This document shows positions 46,100 through 55,257 of a stretch of 64,000 bases of DNA, piece by piece. Source of the DNA: Marinobacter sp. LQ44 (GTDB lineage Bacteria > Pseudomonadota > Gammaproteobacteria > Pseudomonadales > Oleiphilaceae); assembly GCF_001447155.2 (NCBI RefSeq), contig NZ_CP014754.1, forward strand, positions 1,426,001 to 1,490,000, given 5' to 3'. A program made the position numbers and the translations under genes. A model generated the notes under the pieces. It did not search any database and was not told the origin of the DNA. It saw only the letters and a list, made by a program, of their open reading frames with translations. The stretch's first letter is position 1; the number at the start of each line of letters is the position of its first letter.

Positions 46100-47233
46100 T
46101 CAGAAAAACCATTGTAACTCCATTAGCCCGACCGGCTCTAATCTCCCATATTCGCTGTCGTTGTCGCCTCCGAACCATTGGGCTCCTGCCGTGAGATAAA
46201 TTTCCCGTTTGAATGGCAGCGTCCATGTGGACCGGGGGTAAAGTACCCAACTGGCATCATCGGCATTGCGGATGACCACCACGCGATACTGCCAGAACGG
46301 ATTGATATCCTGCCATGCCAGCAGCCCGATATAATGGCGCCCGGTATACAGTGGGCGGGTGGAAACCAGCCTCAAAAGGTCCAGGTTTCCGGGCCGTGCG
46401 GGCTGACCGTTGTAGAAATACTCCAATGCCAGGTTAAAGCCGTTGCGATACGCCCAGTTCAGATCTGCCACGCCCTGCCAGTAACCATCGCCAGTATCTG
46501 CTTCGCTCCAGACGAGTTCAGTACGCCAACCGGTGCCGGCCACTGAGCTACTGCCGCTGACACCCGCTTTGGTCGTGCCTGCAAAATCGCCGATCATCAC
46601 ACTGGCATCGACCCCGGCAACAAAACGCTTGGCCCTCGCCGCCGTGCTGGCCTCTTTATCACCGTGTTGCGGGGCATGAACAGCGCTGATTCGGCCAGTT
46701 GCCCCCCAGGGGCTGTCCCATAACACGGCGTCCACGCCAATTCGTTCATCAGGTTCCAGATTGAGGGGGCTGACAGGATTGAGAATGTCCATGGGGTTCC
46801 AGATCAGGGCGGTGGACCAGTTCACCTGTTGGCGCCCAAATCGGAAATTCCCGGCTGGCGAGCGCCACTGTATGGTGCCACGGTAGAGTTGATGACGCGC
46901 CAACACATCCCCTGACTCATAGACGTCGCCCTGAAGATCCCAGTAGCGTGGATCGGGAACCTCTCTGAGCAGGGCGAATTCCGGGCTGTCCAGAAAACTG
47001 CCTGTCACCAGCTCCAGGTCGTAGGCCGCATCCAGAACCCAGTCTTCATATCGATAGCGGGGCTCCAGACGCAGGCGGGTAAGGTTCGAGAAGTAACGAT
47101 CCTCATCAACCAGCGAGCGCGACCCGGCACTGAGATTCTTGAGCGATCCGGAATGGCTGAAATCAGCCGCAGCGTTCGAAGCCAGCATCAGCCAGGCCAG
47201 GCCCACCGCCACCAGTGGAGTGCGATCAACCAT
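46100..47233 (-). CDS. Outer-membrane beta-barrel-like protein, last gene of the ABC/LolA-like operon
   Basis: 377 residues from ATG 47233, which overlaps the permease stop; GAGG lies upstream. Signal peptide ends at SNAAA. The mature protein alternates short amphipathic strands (GNFRFGRQQVNWSTAL, YRYEDWVLDAAYDLEL) and ends in aromatic ELQWFF, as outer-membrane barrels do. No named family could be assigned with confidence. Its operon partners (ABC ATPase, FtsX-type permeases, LolA-like carrier) suggest export or sorting of a lipid or lipoprotein. Confidence 0.65.
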   Translation of the reverse strand: MVDRTPLVAVGLAWLMLASNAAADFSHSGSLKNLSAGSRSLVDEDRYFSNLTRLRLEPRYRYEDWVLDAAYDLELVTGSFLDSPEFALLREVPDPRYWDLQGDVYESGDVLARHQLYRGTIQWRSPAGNFRFGRQQVNWSTALIWNPMDILNPVSPLNLEPDERIGVDAVLWDSPWGATGRISAVHAPQHGDKEASTAARAKRFVAGVDASVMIGDFAGTTKAGVSGSSSVAGTGWRTELVWSEADTGDGYWQGVADLNWAYRNGFNLALEYFYNGQPARPGNLDLLRLVSTRPLYTGRHYIGLLAWQDINPFWQYRVVVIRNADDASWVLYPRSTWTLPFKREIYLTAGAQWFGGDNDSEYGRLEPVGLMELQWFF

Positions 47234-47950
47234 GCCGAATGGCCTCAACCGGGTCCAGTCGTGAGGCCCGCCACGCCGGGTACAGCGCTACCAGCACGGA
47301 GCACAGGAACAACAGCAGGCTGGGAAGCCAGACATGATCGAAAATCAACACCGGATAGATGCGGTCGGTGATACCGGGGATGGCTTCCAGAGAGCGACTG
47401 ACCGAGGACAGATCAATACCGGTCTGGCCAAGCCAGAACACAAGCAGGCCGCCAACCACCGTTCCTGCCACCATACCCAACACCGCAAGAAAGAATGCCT
47501 CAAACAGAATCGTCAGCTGTAATTGTCCGCCTCTCGTACCCAATGCCAGCATGACGCCCAGTTCCGGGGTACGCTCCATCACCGACATCACCATGGTGTT
47601 CATGACGCCAATCGCGACCACCACAAAGACCACCGACAGAATGAGATAGAAATCCACCTTGCTCATCTCAACCATCTGCACAACCACAGGCAGCAAGGTT
47701 TCCCAGTCCTGGGCCACCAGCCCGTGGTTGGTCAGAGGCGACGACTGGTTCAGGGTCTGTGCCAGGGCCACACTGTCTGAGCGATCTGACAGCCTCAGCA
47801 CGATCCGTGAAACTTCGTCCTCCTGCAGGCCGCCCAGTGTTCGGGCTGCATTGATATCGATGAATGCATACTCTGTGTCGAACAGGTCACTGCCGGTGCG
47901 GTAGATGCCGCGAATGGTCTGGGCGCTGGAGGCAAGATCTCCACCAGCCA
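47226..47950 (-). pseudogene. C-terminal part of a second FtsX/MacB-type permease
   Basis: The frame ending at 47226 can be followed up to about 47950: AGGDLASSAQTIRGIYRTG, then SDLFDTEYAFIDINAARTLG and four helices (VVFVVVAIGVMNTMVMSVME, LYPAWRASRLDPVEAIRHG). The first helix and half of the periplasmic domain are missing. Part of what remains (QTIRGIYRTG...) is homologous to a segment in the adjoining fragment (FEVVGVFETG...), so two tandem permease genes were fused by a deletion. It is unlikely to work. Confidence 0.7.
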
Positions 47951-48595
47951 GCCCAGGACCTCCACATTGCGTTCCTGCAGCTGCTTCCGCAGGCTTCCAA
48001 CCACCGCTTCGAACTGGTCAGAGTCCTCTACGCGGGCAGCAATCTCGGTAAACCGCCCTTCAAAAGCATACAGTGTCTGGGCGGATGCCAGGGGCATCTG
48101 GGCTACAAATCCATCAATACGTTTGATGCCGGTTTCGAAAACACCCACCACCTCGAACCGGTCTGCGCCAATGGAGCCGTCCGCTGCCTGAACCACCAGC
48201 ACCAGCTCATCTCCCGGGGAGGTACTCAGGGCACTGGCGGCGTCCACGCCCATAACGATCTCATTGTCCCCCTCCAGATAGCGCCCGTGGATGATCGACC
48301 GATCAAGCCGGGTTACCTGCGGCTCTGTTGTGCTGTCGACCCCCATCACCTGCAAGGCCCGTGACTGGTCGGCATGGCTGGCCAGCGCATTGCCCGTCAC
48401 CCTGGGCGTGGTCGCTGCGACACCGGTTACGGAGGACATTTCCTCAGCAAGGTTCCAATGCTCGGCAACGGCAATGTTCATTTCCCGGTCGTCGTGAAAT
48501 CCGCGCTGGTGCACTTTCAGGTCGCCGGTTACATAACCGGTCATGTTGTTGATCATCTGGGCATTGATGCCATCGATAAAAGCCCAGAGAAACAC
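47795..48595 (-). pseudogene. Middle part of a first FtsX/MacB-type permease, truncated at both ends
   Basis: Coherent protein runs from VFLWAFIDGINAQMINNMTG (just after the first helix) through the periplasmic MacB-like domain to RNVEVLGW near 47950. Beyond this the frame reads unrelated sequence to a stop at 47795. The N-terminal helix start is missing, joined to the ATPase end at about 48605, and all C-terminal helices are missing. It is the remains of a permease gene between two deletion points. Confidence 0.7.
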
Positions 48596-49214
48596 CAGAC
48601 CTCCGACGCGCTCGCTCCATCACCATCGGATCGTGGGTGGAAAACACAAAGGTAATCCCGTGCTCGGCGTTCAACCCCCGCATCAAGTCCAGCAGGGCCG
48701 CACCGGTCGCGGAGTCGAGATTGGCGGTTGGCTCATCGGCCAGGACAATCGCAGGCTTACTGACGATGGCCCTGGCCACCGCGACACGTTGTTGCTGGCC
48801 GCCGGAGAGTTCATGGGGCAGACGCTGTTCCATCCCCTGCAGCCCGACCTCCGCGAGAATGCGCCGGGCCTCGGCCCGTCGTTCCCGAAACGGAATGCCG
48901 CGAAGCATCAGCACATACTCCACATTCTCCTGAGCCGACAAGACGCCGATAAGGTTGTATTCCTGAAACACAAAACCGATTTTCCACAACCGCAGAATGG
49001 TGCGCTTCTTGCGGCTGAGCCCGGTGATTTCCTCACCCGCCACCTGAATGCGCCCCGTATCCGGTTCGTCCAGGGCCCCGATCTGGTTCAGTAGGGTAGT
49101 CTTGCCCGAACCCGACGGCCCCACCAGCGTTGTGAACTCACCGGGCTCGATCGCCACGGATACATCGTTCAGCGCCTTGACGGCGATGGAATCCTGCTGA
49201 TAAATCCGCGACAC
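48444..49214 (-). CDS. LolD/MacB-type ABC ATPase, C-terminus replaced by out-of-frame sequence
   Basis: Residues 1-204 are a good ATPase: VGPSGSGKTTLLNQIG (Walker A), HELSGGQQQRVAVARAI, VLADEPTANLDS (Walker B) and STHDPMVMERARR. After residue 204 the frame reads into the permease in the wrong frame for 52 residues. The start is uncertain: GTG 49214 is the first conventional codon, but homology-like sequence (ISIVNVQHV) extends 24 bases upstream to an ATT at 49238, suggesting a lost ATG or a rare start. With its permeases broken, the transporter is probably dead. Confidence 0.7.
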   Translation of the reverse strand: MSRIYQQDSIAVKALNDVSVAIEPGEFTTLVGPSGSGKTTLLNQIGALDEPDTGRIQVAGEEITGLSRKKRTILRLWKIGFVFQEYNLIGVLSAQENVEYVLMLRGIPFRERRAEARRILAEVGLQGMEQRLPHELSGGQQQRVAVARAIVSKPAIVLADEPTANLDSATGAALLDLMRGLNAEHGITFVFSTHDPMVMERARRRSGVSLGFYRWHQCPDDQQHDRLCNRRPESAPARISRRPGNEHCRCRALEPC

Positions 49215-50332: not shown

Positions 50333-50704
50333 GATGGCTTACTCTCCTTAAGTTGAACGCACGTCGTTGCGATGCCAATTCAGCGCCCTGGCCATGAAGC
50401 TAAATCCGTTGTCGAAAATCCCGGAAACTTGGGATAAACCGTGGTGTTTTAGCCGCATAGTCGCGCCACGCCTCCCCAAACTCTTTCTCGATATCTTTCT
50501 CCTCATGAATGGACAAACGTGAGTACATCCATAGGAGTACCGGAAACATTGCCAGGGTAAGCAGCGTCGGCCATTGCAGGAGAAAGCCAAACATGATCAG
50601 TGCAAACCCGACATATTGCGGATGACGAACCCAGGCATAAAGCCCACTGGTGGCGAGTTTGCTCTCTTTCTGAGCGGTGTACAGTGTGCGCCAACCGGCC
50701 GCGA

Positions 50705-50709
50705 TCAGA
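50705..50709. repeat. 5-bp target duplication, left side of Tn7-like element
   Basis: TCAGA, identical to 53673-53677. Five base pairs is the duplication size made by Tn7-type transposition. Confidence 0.92.
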
Positions 50710-50856
50710 TGTAGGATCGTAAAAAAGTTGGTAACTAAAAGTCTCTCCAGGGGGCGTATTTTCCCCTCAGAACCGATGCGATGGAAATAAAGTCGGTAAC
50801 TTTGAGGTAGGTTTAACTAGAATGGCTGCCCCCTGCATAATAATAAAGTCAGTAAC
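50710..50856 (+). repeat. Left end of Tn7-like element with three spaced TnsB-like sites
   Basis: Sites AAAGTTGGTAAC at 50724-50735, AAAGTCGGTAAC at 50789-50800 and AAAGTCAGTAAC at 50845-50856, spaced 65 and 56 bases. Tn7 left ends likewise have three separated sites over about 150 bases. From 50857 to 51100 I see no gene; only short unsupported frames. Confidence 0.88.
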
Positions 50857-51100
50857 TATTAAAAGCCTGACTGGCACCAAATTCCAATCCTATTCCGTTT
50901 TTGCCTCTCAGCTGAGTCTTATTGCTCGCCTCCGTTCCTTTCCATCATGAAGGCATGTTCCACGTGTGATCCATAGCTGAAGGGCTGAAGGAAATATTGG
51001 GGATGACGCATTTGAGTGACTTATGTCTGCACGAGTGTCTCCAAAGATCTAGTGGTTTGATCTCAACCTTTCAAAAATCTTTGGAACTGCAAGTGGAGTT

Positions 51101-51121
51101 CGGGGGCAGAAATTGCCCCCG
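51101..51121. terminator. Hairpin after the last cargo gene
   Basis: CGGGGGCA and TGCCCCCG form a perfect 8-bp stem with loop GAAAT, 10 bases past the stop of the 51132 gene. The side with T-residues (TTTAAAG) faces right, so its strength for the cargo operon is uncertain. Confidence 0.55.
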
Positions 51122-51131
51122 TTTAAAGTTT

Positions 51132-51491
51132 CTATCTCGTTTTTACCAGATAGGGTTCTATTGCGGCTTTTAGCTCTGGTGATGGAGCCTTGATTACCAG
51201 CTTCTCCATTGGGAGTTCGTGAACGACCATTAGCGATAACGCTTGATGGTCAAGAACGTGGATCGTTACTCGGTTACCCAGGTTATCCTTCGTCGCGGTG
51301 GCCAATTGGTTTCTTCCACTTGGTGTGAGTTTCAGCCAAAGTGTTCCTTCCGAAAGAACGGCTGCCTCAATCGCGTCCCCAGTCAAATTGATTGTGACCG
51401 CATCGCTCTCTTGAGCATGTGCTTGCTGCGACTGAGTACTACAAGCCGATCCGATAATGACGAGAGTCAAAACAAACAGTCTTAGAAGCAT
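51132..51491 (-). CDS. Cargo gene 3: small exported protein, possible lipoprotein
   Basis: 119 residues: MLLRLFVLTLVIIGSACSTQ is a signal peptide, with a cysteine at 17 in an imperfect lipobox (GSAC). The mature domain is about 90 residues of alternating beta/helix (VTINLTGDAIEAAVLSEGTL, KAAIEPYLVKTR) with no motif that I recognise; it could resemble the small substrate-inhibitor-like domains, but that is a guess. It overlaps cargo gene 2 by 10 bases. Base composition is lower in GC than the flanking chromosome. Confidence 0.55.
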   Translation of the reverse strand: MLLRLFVLTLVIIGSACSTQSQQAHAQESDAVTINLTGDAIEAAVLSEGTLWLKLTPSGRNQLATATKDNLGNRVTIHVLDHQALSLMVVHELPMEKLVIKAPSPELKAAIEPYLVKTR

Positions 51492-52315
51492 GGATTGGGT
51501 GGCATCCCGTCAGTCCAGGTAGATTCGATGCCATATGAAACTATGAATGCATCGGAATTGGTCGATACCTCAAAATTCCATCCCATAGGCTCGTCCCCAC
51601 CGTTTACAAAAGTGAAGGTGACGCTCTGCTGAGGCAGAATAATCGACTCCTTCGTTTGTCCAAGCGGGTCAGTATCCTTGACAGATATTGTCGTGCCAAG
51701 AAGGTTCTGGTTAGTGAATGTCAGTTTAACCGCCTGGCCAAATGATCCACTGATCGTAGCATCGCCGGTCAATGCACCACCTTGTCCTTCGACGGGCACA
51801 AATTGCTCTGTACGGAGGACCTGCACGGCGTCCACGGCCAGGGCCGAGTCTACGATCGTATCCCCTACATCCTGTACTTCATACGCTAGCTGTACCGTCG
51901 TGCCTACCAGCCCGGAAAGATCCGTGTTGTAATTGATCTCAGGCGTAGCCCCGTTATACCCAAGCAGACCTGATGACCAGGTAGAACTGTTGACGTTTCC
52001 GTTCGCTATGATTTCGACCTTACCGGGCGCAGTTAAACGTGCGAGATAAGTGTCATTATACTCTGTACCGTAGTATTGCGGCCACTCGTTAGAAAGAAAC
52101 CGAAGACGGCCAGAGACTTGCTCGTAAGCAGGTGGAACAACAAACGCCTGACTCAAGGTACCCTTTGCTGATTGCGAGCCAGCATTGCTGACAACAGCCG
52201 CTTGGGTTACCGGACAGCCAGCTGCAGCTGCGCTTTGCGCACCGGCGAGAAGCATCACTGCTGTGCAAGGGATCACGACGCTTAACTTTGGCGCCACTTT
52301 CTTCATGATATCCAT
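51482..52315 (-). CDS. Cargo gene 2: exported protein that looks like the detached C-terminal half of cargo gene 1
   Basis: 277 residues from ATG 52315 (AAGGGAG upstream). A signal peptide MDIMKKVAPKLSVVIPCTAV ends in an Ala-rich SAAAAG. The mature part (VVSNAGSQSAKGTLSQAFVV, RLRFLSNEWPQYYG, NDTYLARLTAPGK) is a beta-sandwich-like domain of the kind that normally follows an 'NxFENGLxGW' segment. That segment is exactly where cargo gene 1 ends (LNSNFENGLEGWSTEG...TPDSGN). So a single ancestral secreted protein seems to have been split, the second half gaining its own signal peptide. Confidence 0.6.
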   Translation of the reverse strand: MDIMKKVAPKLSVVIPCTAVMLLAGAQSAAAAGCPVTQAAVVSNAGSQSAKGTLSQAFVVPPAYEQVSGRLRFLSNEWPQYYGTEYNDTYLARLTAPGKVEIIANGNVNSSTWSSGLLGYNGATPEINYNTDLSGLVGTTVQLAYEVQDVGDTIVDSALAVDAVQVLRTEQFVPVEGQGGALTGDATISGSFGQAVKLTFTNQNLLGTTISVKDTDPLGQTKESIILPQQSVTFTFVNGGDEPMGWNFEVSTNSDAFIVSYGIESTWTDGMPPNPCF

Positions 52316-52330
52316 ATTACTCAATCTCCC

Positions 52331-53353
52331 TTAGTTGCCTGAGTCCGGTGTGGTGAAAACAAGGTTTCGGTCAATGAGGGTGACTGAGCCTTCTGTAGAC
52401 CATCCTTCTAGGCCATTCTCGAAATTGCTATTCAGGAACTCGGCATTTACAGTCTGAGGCGCAGTTATTGTCAGGTTGCGCGTGATCTGGGAGGAGTAAC
52501 TCGACAGGACTCCAGTGGTGGATCCGCTAGCACCAGTATCGTTTTTGAAGCCAACGAGAATCAGAGTTCCATCTCCATGGACATTCGTCAGTGCAAAAGA
52601 TCCATCGCTTGACGAGATTGTTGAGTATTTTCGGTCAGTATCGGGAAAGATAGCTGTTACCAGAGCGGCGGGAGCAGGCAGCCCAGATTCATCATAAACA
52701 GTTCCGTAGATGGCACTGCTACCTGCGGGGTCAACAGTAACGAGTACAGAAGATGTGTTTTCGGTTTCAAGCAAACTGCCTTGAGCGCTGCCTGTTCTTC
52801 CATCCTGAGTTGTTACGTCTACAACGTAAACTCCAGCTTCCGTTAGATCTGAGATTGAAAACAGACCATTGCTATCGGTGGTGGCTGTGAACGTAGATCC
52901 CGACTCGATAAAGCTAACGTTAACGATTGCGCCGCCGATAGGTGCCTTATCGTTGAAGCCGAACACACCGCCATTTATAGCCAATGTCTCTGGTTCAAAG
53001 TTACCAGAAATAATGGAAACGACTCTCTCGGCTTCAGATATCAATGCAGCCGCGTAACTCTCCCCAATAAATTTTCCGCTTCTCTTACTAACGCCTGCGA
53101 TATATTTTTCCAGCTCTTGAATCGCCTTATCGTCAGCCTCTTTTGCGTAGTGCTTTTCAGCATTAGCAACACGGTGGCAGAGCCCAGTTTGAGGGGGATT
53201 CCCCACGGCTGGGTCTAACGTCATTGTTGCAAGCTGACGAAAAGGTTCTGGAAGAGTCTCACAAGCAGCAGTTCCGTTGTTGCTCGCATGTGTCTGGATG
53301 GATATGAGTGCAATGGATAATAAAGACGCGAATAAGACAAATAGTCTTAGCAT
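52331..53353 (-). CDS. Cargo gene 1: exported protein with carboxypeptidase-regulatory-like repeats
   Basis: 340 residues; signal peptide MLRLFVLFASLLSIALISIQ, cleavage near HAS, GGAGG upstream of ATG 53353. Residues 25-115 are helical, with several cysteines (CETLPEPFRQLA, TGLCHRVANAEKHYAKEADD). Two CarboxypepD_reg-like beta domains follow at about 125-200 (GGAIVNVSFIESG, TTDSNGLFSISDLTEAG) and 205-295 (AIYGTVYDESGLPAPAALVT). It ends at TPDSGN, where a jelly-roll-like domain would start. Surface or adhesion role is possible but unproven. The 250 bases upstream hold the promoter within the element. Confidence 0.62.
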   Translation of the reverse strand: MLRLFVLFASLLSIALISIQTHASNNGTAACETLPEPFRQLATMTLDPAVGNPPQTGLCHRVANAEKHYAKEADDKAIQELEKYIAGVSKRSGKFIGESYAAALISEAERVVSIISGNFEPETLAINGGVFGFNDKAPIGGAIVNVSFIESGSTFTATTDSNGLFSISDLTEAGVYVVDVTTQDGRTGSAQGSLLETENTSSVLVTVDPAGSSAIYGTVYDESGLPAPAALVTAIFPDTDRKYSTISSSDGSFALTNVHGDGTLILVGFKNDTGASGSTTGVLSSYSSQITRNLTITAPQTVNAEFLNSNFENGLEGWSTEGSVTLIDRNLVFTTPDSGN

Positions 53354-53606
53354 TTAAAGCCTCCGTGTTTTCGTTTAGTCCCTAACGGCTACCACCTTCT
53401 GAAAGGCGTTGAAGCAGTGCCGTCGTGGGTAAAATACTAGGAGAGGATTTCAGCTTCTGTGTAACAGTGCGTACTTATAAAGTTATTTTTTGTCGAGCCG
53501 ACTCCAAAGGCATACCAGCATCGAATCCCATGAAGCGGCATTCGTTGATCCGGTTACTCTCTTCATTTTTTGATGAGCGGTTTGACCAAGCGGACACCGG
53601 AAACGA

Positions 53607-53672
53607 GTTACCAACTCTATTAGTAAGTTACCAACTTTATTATGTTGTTACCGACTTTATTACGATCCCACA
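53607..53672 (-). repeat. Right end of Tn7-like element with three tandem TnsB-like sites at 20-bp period
   Basis: Sites GTTACCAACTCT (53607), GTTACCAACTTT (53627) and GTTACCGACTTT (53647) repeat every 20 bases, then ATTACGATCCCACA to the terminus at 53672. Tn7 right ends carry four abutting sites of about 22 bp. Left and right thus differ in spacing as in Tn7. Confidence 0.9.
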
Positions 53673-53677
53673 TCAGA
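53673..53677. repeat. 5-bp target duplication, right side of Tn7-like element
   Basis: TCAGA, identical to 50705-50709. Confidence 0.92.
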
Positions 53678-54007
53678 TAAAATCCACCCGCAATGAAAGC
53701 GGTACTCAGCAAATGGAATGGCCCGAAGTGGGGAGAACCCTGCCACCCAAACAACATTTCCAGTAAATGCCCGCTGTCATGGGAAAACCAGTCAACATCT
53801 GGGTAGCTGCTTTGTAACCAGCCCGCAAGGAAGTAAATAGTTAACGGGAAACCGTACATTTCAGTAAACAACGCGACCAGAAACGCACTAAAGGCACCAA
53901 ACGAGCGCCAGTCGCGCTTAGTTTTAGGCTTGAAAAAGCTGAACGCAAAAAAGATAAAAACAGCAGAGTTCAGGACGACGAGACTCCAGAGCCCGTAGTC
54001 AGTTGCT

Positions 54008-54214
54008 TCATTGCTCATGGTGATCTTCCTTTTTCGGACCATGTTGATGTCCGGAATGGCCTCCGTGCATAAATATATGCATTAGCGGGCACAGCAGGAG
54101 AATCAACCACGGCAGTGCGCCGAGAATATGAACCTTGTGCTCGCCCCAAAGGAGAACCAGAGCAATCACACCGAAGAAAGAAAGCGTAATCCAATATCGA
54201 CGGCTAAATTCCAT
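54008..54214 (-). CDS. DUF2933 family small membrane protein
   Basis: 68 residues from ATG 54214, with AGGAGAATT upstream. Two helices (YWITLSFFGVIALVLLWGEH, ILGALPWLILLLCPLMHIFM) and a His-rich tail (HGGHSGHQHGPKKEDHHEQ). The LPWLxLLxCPLMHxFMHGGH pattern is typical of DUF2933, small proteins of copper-resistance clusters that often precede an ICMT-like gene, as here (11-base overlap). The His tail may bind Cu. A TTCAG-type repeat lies 84 bases upstream. Confidence 0.82.
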   Translation of the reverse strand: MEFSRRYWITLSFFGVIALVLLWGEHKVHILGALPWLILLLCPLMHIFMHGGHSGHQHGPKKEDHHEQ

Positions 54215-54345: not shown

Positions 54346-55257
54346 TCAATCAATTCCTGGACGAACTTCGCGCACCCTCCCGCCTTCGCCCGGTGCTTTC
54401 ATGACGATAATCAGACCAATAATTGTGATACTAATGCCGGTGATTTCCACAACAGTGAAGGTTTCCCCAAACCACAGTAGCCCGATAACAACACCTATGG
54501 CCGGCGTAAGAAAGGTAAACGAATTGAGACTGTTCAAAGGAGCGCTTGCCAGCAGGGCATACCACAACACGACCATCAGTGCCGTAGCGGGAATGGACAG
54601 CATTAAAGCAGCGGTGGCAAACGACCAGGTCCAGTTAATGTCCATGCCTTCGCCCAGGATGACAGAAGCAAAACCCAGAAAAACTGAACCAATTACAAGC
54701 TGAATGCCCATTGACCAGTAGATATCATCGCTGCCGGCCTGGTATTTAAGCAGTACGTTTCCAATGGCAGTACCCCAACGGCGCCACCAAGAATTTAAAC
54801 CGATCCTATGAATCTGGAGTTACTTACTTCCATGTCAGGCGCTGCGAGCACCACAACACCGATAAAGCCAATGAGTAATCCGGCAAACAGACGCCCGCTC
54901 ACAACTTCCCTGATGAAAAAATAGGACAACACAGCTGCAAAAAGTGGTTGTGCGTTTGCCAAAACGGTTGCAAGCCCGGGGCCCAATTCTCCGGCTCCGA
55001 GAAACATCCCGCCAAGCCCCATACCGGTGTAACTGAAGCCGATAGCCGTCAACACAAAAAACTGTCGGGGGGGAGTATCGGACGCGACCGCCCCTTGCAA
55101 GGGCGATCAGAACCAGGCAGATACCCGCCAGCAATGCCCGTAACGCCGCAAAAAGCAAGGGTGGCGCGTCTGGAAGACCCACCACGATAAAGGGAAAACA
55201 AATCGCCCAAAGAACCACAATGAGCACCATGCCGGCAGCTGAACGTATCGACATCAA
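54346..55257 (-). pseudogene. EamA/DMT-family transporter with several inactivating changes
   Basis: Read together, three frames make one drug/metabolite transporter of about 300 residues: MMSIRSAAGMVLIVVLWAIC, then (after a slip at the run of seven G at 55067-55073) RQFFVLTAIGFSYTGMGLGG to SNSRFIGSV, then a stop TAA where Leu (TTA) is expected near 54778-54783 and a further frame change, then TAIGNVLLKYQAGSDDIYWS to the end. At least one nonsense change and two frame changes make it a pseudogene. It is preceded downstream-wise by the copper repeat of the DUF2933 operon. Confidence 0.8.

Follow-up and report, generated by a model that had tools for sequence, protein, structure and literature searches.

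The element and its insertion site

How does a segment of DNA that has the termini of a transposon and no transposition gene of its own come to interrupt a chromosomal gene? The question is raised by a 2,963-bp element in Marinobacter sp. LQ44, which lies in a stretch of 64,000 nucleotides (contig NZ_CP014754.1, positions 1,426,001 to 1,490,000 of the forward strand) that is referred to here as the window and is numbered from its first letter. Our answer is that this element is very probably a non-autonomous Tn7-like transposon, that is, a natural mini-Tn7 around a captured operon whose machinery would be borrowed in trans.

The element spans positions 50710 to 53672 with TCAGA abutting it on each side, and its terminal 26 bp match as inverted repeats at 23 of 26 positions. 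When up to one mismatch is allowed, the 12-bp box AAAGTYGGTAAC occurs six times in the window and all six copies are at the ends of the element, three on the plus strand at the left end (starts at 50724, 50789 and 50845, spaced by 65 and 56 bp) and three on the minus strand at the right end (starts at 53607, 53627 and 53647, a period of 20 bp); the innermost box at each end has one mismatch. The number expected in 64 kb is 0.22, and six copies were reached in none of 100 shuffles. The initial annotation, made from the DNA letters, had claimed the 26-bp inverted ends, the three boxes per end with the 20-bp period on the right and the perfect TCAGA duplication, and all of these were borne out. 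It had also proposed a search of the genome for other copies of the ends: a 16-bp version of the box, with one mismatch allowed, has six matches in the 4.43-Mb one-contig genome, all in this element, and the reversed control pattern has one match. The TGT...ACA termini with asymmetric arrays of TnsB-type boxes and the 5-bp target duplication are those of a Tn7-like element, and Tn7 makes 5-bp target duplications. The G+C content of the element is 0.48 versus 0.57 for the window. The features are as follows.

50400..50709 (left limit approximate), minus strand: C-terminal half of the interrupted methyltransferase
50705..50709, no strand: target-site duplication TCAGA, left copy (a single TCAGA in the empty allele L093)
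50710..50735, plus strand: left terminal inverted repeat, 23/26 to the right one (end comparison)
50710..51093, plus strand: left-end segment of about 384 bp (not covered by the alignment with the end-less G120 operon)
50724..50735, plus strand: left TnsB-type box 1 (box scan)
50789..50800, plus strand: left TnsB-type box 2 (box scan)
50845..50856, plus strand: left TnsB-type box 3, one mismatch (box scan)
51094..53498, minus strand: captured operon segment (89.6% identity to the end-less G120 copy)
53499..53672, minus strand: right-end segment of about 174 bp (comparison with the end-less operon)
53607..53618, minus strand: right TnsB-type box 3, one mismatch (box scan)
53627..53638, minus strand: right TnsB-type box 2 (box scan)
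53647..53658, minus strand: right TnsB-type box 1 (box scan)
53647..53672, minus strand: right terminal inverted repeat (end comparison)
53673..53677, no strand: target-site duplication TCAGA, right copy (matches the left copy)
53673..54042, minus strand: N-terminal half of the interrupted membrane methyltransferase (PEMT/ICMT by its intact homologue)

Removal of the insert with one TCAGA gives a 237-amino-acid stop-to-stop frame, 224 amino acids when counted from its ATG, which is the restoration of the target protein that had been claimed. An uninterrupted gene was found when relatives were searched for the empty site, as had also been suggested: the closest homologue, in genome G107 (L093), is 86% identical over 1,003 bp across the junction, has a single TCAGA and is without the insert, and its product matches the PEMT and ICMT families. 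Homologues of the methyltransferase (E 1e-20) are present in 51 of the 163 genomes of the host family, the LQ44 genome counted, and LQ44 itself has paralogues at 85, 81 and 81%. The ends, the boxes, the duplication and the empty site together confirm that the element is real. Genome G104 has a copy at the same site, 99.97% identical over 2,963 bp and with the same duplication; in that genome an insertion judged by eye to be IS630-like lies in the other half of the same methyltransferase gene (L076:14491-15622).

The cargo genes

Three genes, all on the minus strand, are inside the element.

51132..51491, minus strand: 119-amino-acid protein with a signal-like N terminus (a sub-threshold SecDF_P1_head match alone)
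51482..52324, minus strand: 280-amino-acid secreted-type protein (predicted model with strands, no helix and a mean pLDDT of 81)
52331..53353, minus strand: 340-amino-acid secreted-type protein (carboxypeptidase-regulatory-like domains, PF13620, and a sub-threshold FIMAH match)

None of the three cargo proteins has a transposition-type Pfam match, and tblastn with 14 Tns reference proteins found no match inside the element copy L076, which agrees with the initial annotation that no tns gene is inside. Searches for cargo function with Pfam, NCBIfam and PADLOC returned the carboxypeptidase-regulatory-like domains and otherwise sub-threshold or no matches, and the model of the 280-amino-acid protein had no PDB match with a TM score above 0.33 among the 50 of 1,791 matches listed.

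The same three genes in the same order are found in G120 (89.6% over 2,407 bp, window positions 51094-53498) and in G067 (75.8%), and the 119-amino-acid gene with most of the 280-amino-acid gene is found in G030 (80.8% over 1,076 bp). Profiles of the ends detected no Tn7-type end within the 11-16 kb around these operon copies. Plasmid pHL2708Z5 has a relative of the 340-amino-acid gene, also without ends. Because the operon occurs without ends in relatives, the element is, by these alignments, a captured operon enclosed by a left end of 384 bp and a right end of 174 bp. The first 177-185 bp of the left-end segment are about 77% identical to the left ends of L079, L075 and the Marinobacter nauticus plasmid pMAQU02.

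Relationship of the ends to Tn7

When the genome_contigs collection was scanned for pairs of boxes spaced as at the right end, 36 stretches were found, of which 10 have Marinobacter in their titles, and comparison with the Tns references placed tns genes beside such ends in part of the 36. The references were drawn from three of these loci, whose matches are therefore self-matches. The operon next to the end in G050 has, by Pfam, the order TnsA, TnsB, TnsC, TnsD and TnsE, TnsB being recognized by a sub-threshold Mu C-terminal match alone and TnsE_C at E = 7e-36. This autonomous element extends from 1519793 to 1585100 (65.3 kb), has ATTAG on both sides, and its right end is 28 positions from the last glmS codon. 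At eight distinct loci, namely L011, L012 (which coincides with L087), L014, L025, L035, L042, L084 and L089, a distance of 28 or 29 positions separates the right terminus from the final sense codon of glmS, and tns matches are inside seven of the eight, with none within the 587 bp available in L035. Next to these end arrays, autonomous kin encode TnsA (PF08722/PF08721), TnsC with PF11426, TnsD and TnsE.

These observations bear on whether the ends could belong to a different family that has TGT...ACA termini and makes 5-bp duplications, of the Tn5053/Tn402 or IS21 type. Such families, too, combine an AAA partner with a DDE transposase, and their ends have repeated sites. However, the kin at the same end arrays encode TnsA, TnsC, TnsD and TnsE and lie 28-29 bp from glmS, with no search directed at ist or tni genes made, and the end of Tn7 from plasmid R721 shares the layout and has a related box. 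An IS21 or Tn5053 identity was dropped because the kin beside the boxes encode these Tns proteins, and we regard it as highly improbable. The Tn7-like reading of the initial annotation is thus supported, in that the same boxes head tnsABCDE elements in the same bacterial family, and the ends of the window element are best assigned to the Tn7 type. The boxes are those of autonomous tns operons, and their recognition by a Tn7-type TnsB is putative.

Plasmids of Klebsiella and Acidithiobacillus carry TnsB relatives with 62-64% identity, and in the one of each examined, related boxes precede tnsA. In a TnsB clade at 49% identity, AAAGTWGTTAAC boxes were found in three of four loci, and in a clade at 39% no AAAGT array was found in the seven loci examined. 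The idea that each TnsB clade strictly has its own type of box was not borne out, because TnsB proteins at 40-41% (L026, L031 and L038) are accompanied by YGGTAAC boxes; box type is therefore not a simple function of TnsB identity.

A family of elements without tns genes

The initial annotation had proposed a search for the same ends with different cargo, and relatives do have ends of this kind around other genes, together with 5-bp duplications. A set of 13 elements, chosen for their duplications, served to build end profiles, and every adjacent left and right end was then paired across the loci analysed, which gave 20 distinct pairs. The 5-bp flanks are identical in 16 of these, against 0 of 20 for control flanks 10 bp further out. 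The 16 include all 13 training elements. Among the seven other pairs, three have identical flanks (L049, L059 and L252), two match at four of five positions (L074 and L193) and two are mismatched (L075 and L016); the chance of at least three perfect flanks in seven pairs is about 3e-8. The 16 elements with identical flanks are between 182 and 7,926 bp long. The 14 Tns references matched none of the 20 elements (tblastn, E 1e-3), and the same queries hit other loci.

The cargo of these elements varies. Closely similar elements with a YafN/Phd-type antitoxin and a RelE/ParE-type toxin are at three sites with different duplications (L036, GCAGA; L049, ACTGC; L059, GTTCG). An AbiEi/AbiEii pair is inside a tns-less element at L079:16321-18297. 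The 1,863-bp element L252:3971-5833 (G045), with CCCAC on both sides and oriented, contrary to the prevailing direction, with the replication fork, has an integrase-like gene and a nucleotidyltransferase/HEPN pair. L085 has metabolic and transporter genes, and several others have only genes without family matches or no genes. Plasmid copies include one of 1,358 bp on pMAQU02, one of 248 bp on a Methylophaga frappieri IncP plasmid, and a 669-bp tns-less element with a GTTGG duplication and one 137-amino-acid open reading frame on the Salmonella IncQ1 plasmid pSAL4445-2 (L123:4475-5143), a small, mobilisable plasmid; the right end of the last is 96% identical to the window right end over 56 bp. 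The duplication on pMAQU02 is also TCAGA. TCAGA was considered as a preferred target and rejected, the other duplications being different. An order-wide search matched 6 of 390 genomes, four already in the family set and two outside the family, where the pattern is therefore rare. The exact two-box pattern had no match in viral_contigs, and the right end had none in ecoli_genomes at E 1e-5. The window element is one of a little-noticed group of passengers in marine bacteria and plasmids.

Two further arrangements were seen. On pSMR5 (L193:777-2580), genes annotated as helix-turn-helix and AbiEii adjoin a 247-bp pair of Tn7-like ends with flanks matching at four of five positions, and in a Desulfobulbus metagenome-assembled genome (L010:2428-3116) two tns-less Tn7-like elements are back to back, the second with flanks matching at four of five.

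The window element is in the methyltransferase gene and not at glmS, the site of the TnsD pathway, which agrees with the initial annotation that it is not at attTn7. This is not a rule for the family, because the tns-less 7,926-bp element L085 (1067-8992) is 31 positions from glmS in G133. Directly behind that element is a tnsABC set of a different clade (L085 9120-13480).

Could the element be a decayed autonomous Tn7-like transposon, from which tnsABCDE was deleted after insertion here and in which the three genes are leftover cargo? Complete autonomous elements that share the boxes do occur in the host family, and the window unit was not found at a second site. Against this, the two ends are intact, as is the duplication; G104 has this 2,963-bp unit at the corresponding position, and that copy, L076, is free of tns matches. 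Elements of 182-1,977 bp that hold other cargo are flanked by duplications of their own, because of which tns-less units seem to have moved as such. Decay in place is therefore an unlikely account, and the non-autonomous passenger is preferred.

Transposition machinery in LQ44 and its relatives

The set of tnsA, tnsB, tnsC and a TniQ/TnsD gene was not found in the element, and it is therefore classed as a non-autonomous passenger of the family and not as a Tn7-like transposon proper. It had been proposed that the element must rely on a TnsABC-like machinery elsewhere. The absence of tns genes from the element agrees with this, but a Marinobacter TnsB query had no match elsewhere in the LQ44 assembly, although it matches 29 of the 163 family genomes at E 1e-10. 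A search of LQ44 for TnsA (PF08722) was also empty; it shows little because it was empty in all 14 control genomes as well. Since the machinery is not elsewhere in the assembly, the element is either stranded here or dependent on a plasmid or a visiting element.

In the 24 family genomes with this right end (26 right-end genomes minus G005 and G009, which have another box), a TnsB at least 80% identical is present in 5 and no TnsB match at E 1e-10 was found in 13. Assembly gaps explain some of these absences because G030, one of the 13, has a TnsA fragment at a contig end (L034). G084, in which TnsB had no match, has a 21.35-kb element flanked on each side by GTTAG.

Orientation of the insertions

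Besides TnsD and glmS, the Tn7 family has a second target pathway, which uses TnsE. If a pathway of the TnsE type placed these elements, their orientation would be expected to track replication, and the orientation of insertions relative to the replication fork was therefore scored. Of eight genomes in which dnaA and dif-like sites were placed, six were used. Local GC skew, which agrees with origin and dif in 9 of 10 rows of complete genomes, served to score the draft contigs. The first set had 21 rows, from which the glmS site G133:3220076 and the orthologue G084 were removed, and 16 of the remaining 19 insertions are against the fork, the exceptions being G133:277972, G073:494862 and G078. 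The direction was fixed after this set and the follow-up left ends were then scored for it. Six of the eight follow-up sites named beforehand are against the fork. Two were added after the results had been seen, G069 C3 (against the fork), because G069 C14 is the left end of an autonomous glmS element, and G114 (with the fork), which gives 7 of 10 (p 0.34 for the follow-up by itself). Of the 14 follow-up rows, the remaining four (G050, G069 C14, G084 and G030 C113) are autonomous, already counted or orthologous. In the follow-up, G133:290895 was scored by origin and dif against its own skew, and G120:291658, G110 and G140 are partial or weak ends; the counts omit left ends in G035, G070, G127 and G030 C29 and a few partial or other-box matches. 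Overall, 23 of 29 non-glmS insertions are against the fork (two-sided p 0.0023), and 11 of 13 when scored by origin and dif alone (p 0.022).

A wider screen for glmS found an intact copy 5.5 kb from G120:1497251. In G097 a truncated glmS (349-amino-acid frame, L081:130-1196) ends 21 positions from a diverged right end at G097:151706, with G097:157398 5.7 kb further; this truncated gene is possibly a fragment carried or left by a Tn7-like insertion. A glmS match in L206 (101-amino-acid frame, more than 7 kb from the end) did not lead to removal of that site. Without the three glmS-near sites the counts are 13 of 16 in the first set (p 0.021), 20 of 26 overall (p 0.0094) and 8 of 10 by origin and dif (p 0.11).

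According to a review (PMC5371812), TnsE-guided Tn7 insertions show a replication-linked orientation, the direction of which could not be confirmed from it. The tendency of non-glmS insertions to lie against the fork fits TnsE-type placement and supports it without proving it. It is also quite possible, if short of probable, that placement is by a relaxed TnsABC(D) without a replication-linked pathway, and that the skew is due to chance or to the direction of transcription. The follow-up set is not significant alone, six of the 29 insertions go the other way, the strict origin and dif set of 8 of 10 is also not significant, and some scored insertions are close together in counts that are uncorrected for gene direction. 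On the other side are the overall and the strict counts (23 of 29 and 20 of 26), the TnsE encoded by the autonomous relative that was scanned, and the replication-linked orientation described in that review.

Proposed mechanism and significance

We propose that TnsA and TnsB of an autonomous relative in the same cell would bind the boxes, pair the ends and excise the element, and that TnsC would hand the excised element to the target, with TnsD or TnsE. Placement away from glmS may be through a TnsE-type, replication-linked pathway, and conjugative plasmids probably bring passenger and machinery together. Every step past the recognition of the ends is modelled on Tn7.

Several points weigh against this reading. 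There is no helper in the present genome and present mobility is unproven, though plasmids may be missing from the assembly. Movement in trans is argued by analogy and the contact of TnsB with this box is putative. Four of the 20 end pairs lack identical flanks, and all four are among the seven that were not used for training. The orientation bias was first noticed in the first set, in which three sites are near a glmS gene or fragment, and neither the follow-up (7 of 10; 6 of 8 for the named sites) nor the strict origin and dif count is significant alone.

Tn7 ends and transposase-less Tn3 elements, the latter a described class (TIMEs), are already known. No description of natural non-autonomous or miniature Tn7-like elements was found in the PubMed Central literature searched, and within that literature a Tn7 counterpart as a natural family is apparently new. 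In a survey of Tn7-like elements (PMC8649781), the search starts from tns genes, because of which tns-less passengers would be missed; the survey also reports plasmid insertions in which no tnsE is recognisable, and it gives a TnsE that acts in trans as one of the possible causes. Passengers that keep their ends intact but have no tns genes would offer a case of such trans action open to direct test. They would also widen the set of genes moved by Tn7 machinery, add natural end sequences, and help to explain how small operons reach plasmids without a transposase of their own.

On balance we lean towards an overlooked second tier of Tn7, in which end-only mini-Tn7s gather operons, use the TnsD and TnsE pathways of their relatives and spread via plasmids. 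Its operons would be toxin-antitoxin, AbiE, MNT/HEPN and secreted-protein genes, its carriers conjugative and mobilisable plasmids with a reach up to the Salmonella IncQ1 plasmid, and surveys anchored on tns genes would be blind to it.

Neighbouring genes

Two other apparently disrupted regions are in the window. An EamA-type transporter gene beside the copper cluster is apparently split over frames (54346-55257), and MacB/FtsX-type ABC transporter genes are apparently broken across several frames (47226-49214).

Comparison with known systems

Like Tn7 of the E. coli plasmid R721, the element has a TGTGGG terminus, a first box from position 15 with an AAAGT core, and a right-end box spacing of 20-21 bp. 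It differs in its box, AAAGTYGGTAAC versus AAAGTCTTAAAC in R721, in having no tns genes inside and in not being at glmS. The autonomous G050 element of the same genus has the same boxes, the same end layout, a 5-bp duplication and a right end of which 67 bp are 89.6% identical, but it carries tnsABCDE and is at glmS.

TIMEs are likewise transposase-less, have the ends of a large family and 5-bp duplications and can carry cargo, and they use a transposase in trans, as the window element would. Their ends, however, are Tn3-family ends with 38-bp repeats, whereas those of the window element are of the Tn7 type, and composite TIMEs have a whole TIME on each side of the cargo, whereas here one asymmetric pair of ends encloses it. 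The absence of a transposase, the family-type inverted ends and the target duplication are shared by the window element with miniature inverted-repeat transposable elements and TIMEs, although at 2,963 bp it is longer than their usual 50-500 bp or so; L041 (182 bp), L009 and L126 (248 bp) and L010 (352 bp) are within that range. A further parallel is the laboratory mini-Tn7 vector, in which Tn7 ends surround foreign cargo and the transposase is supplied in trans, as it would be here, the difference being that the window element is natural and has another type of box.

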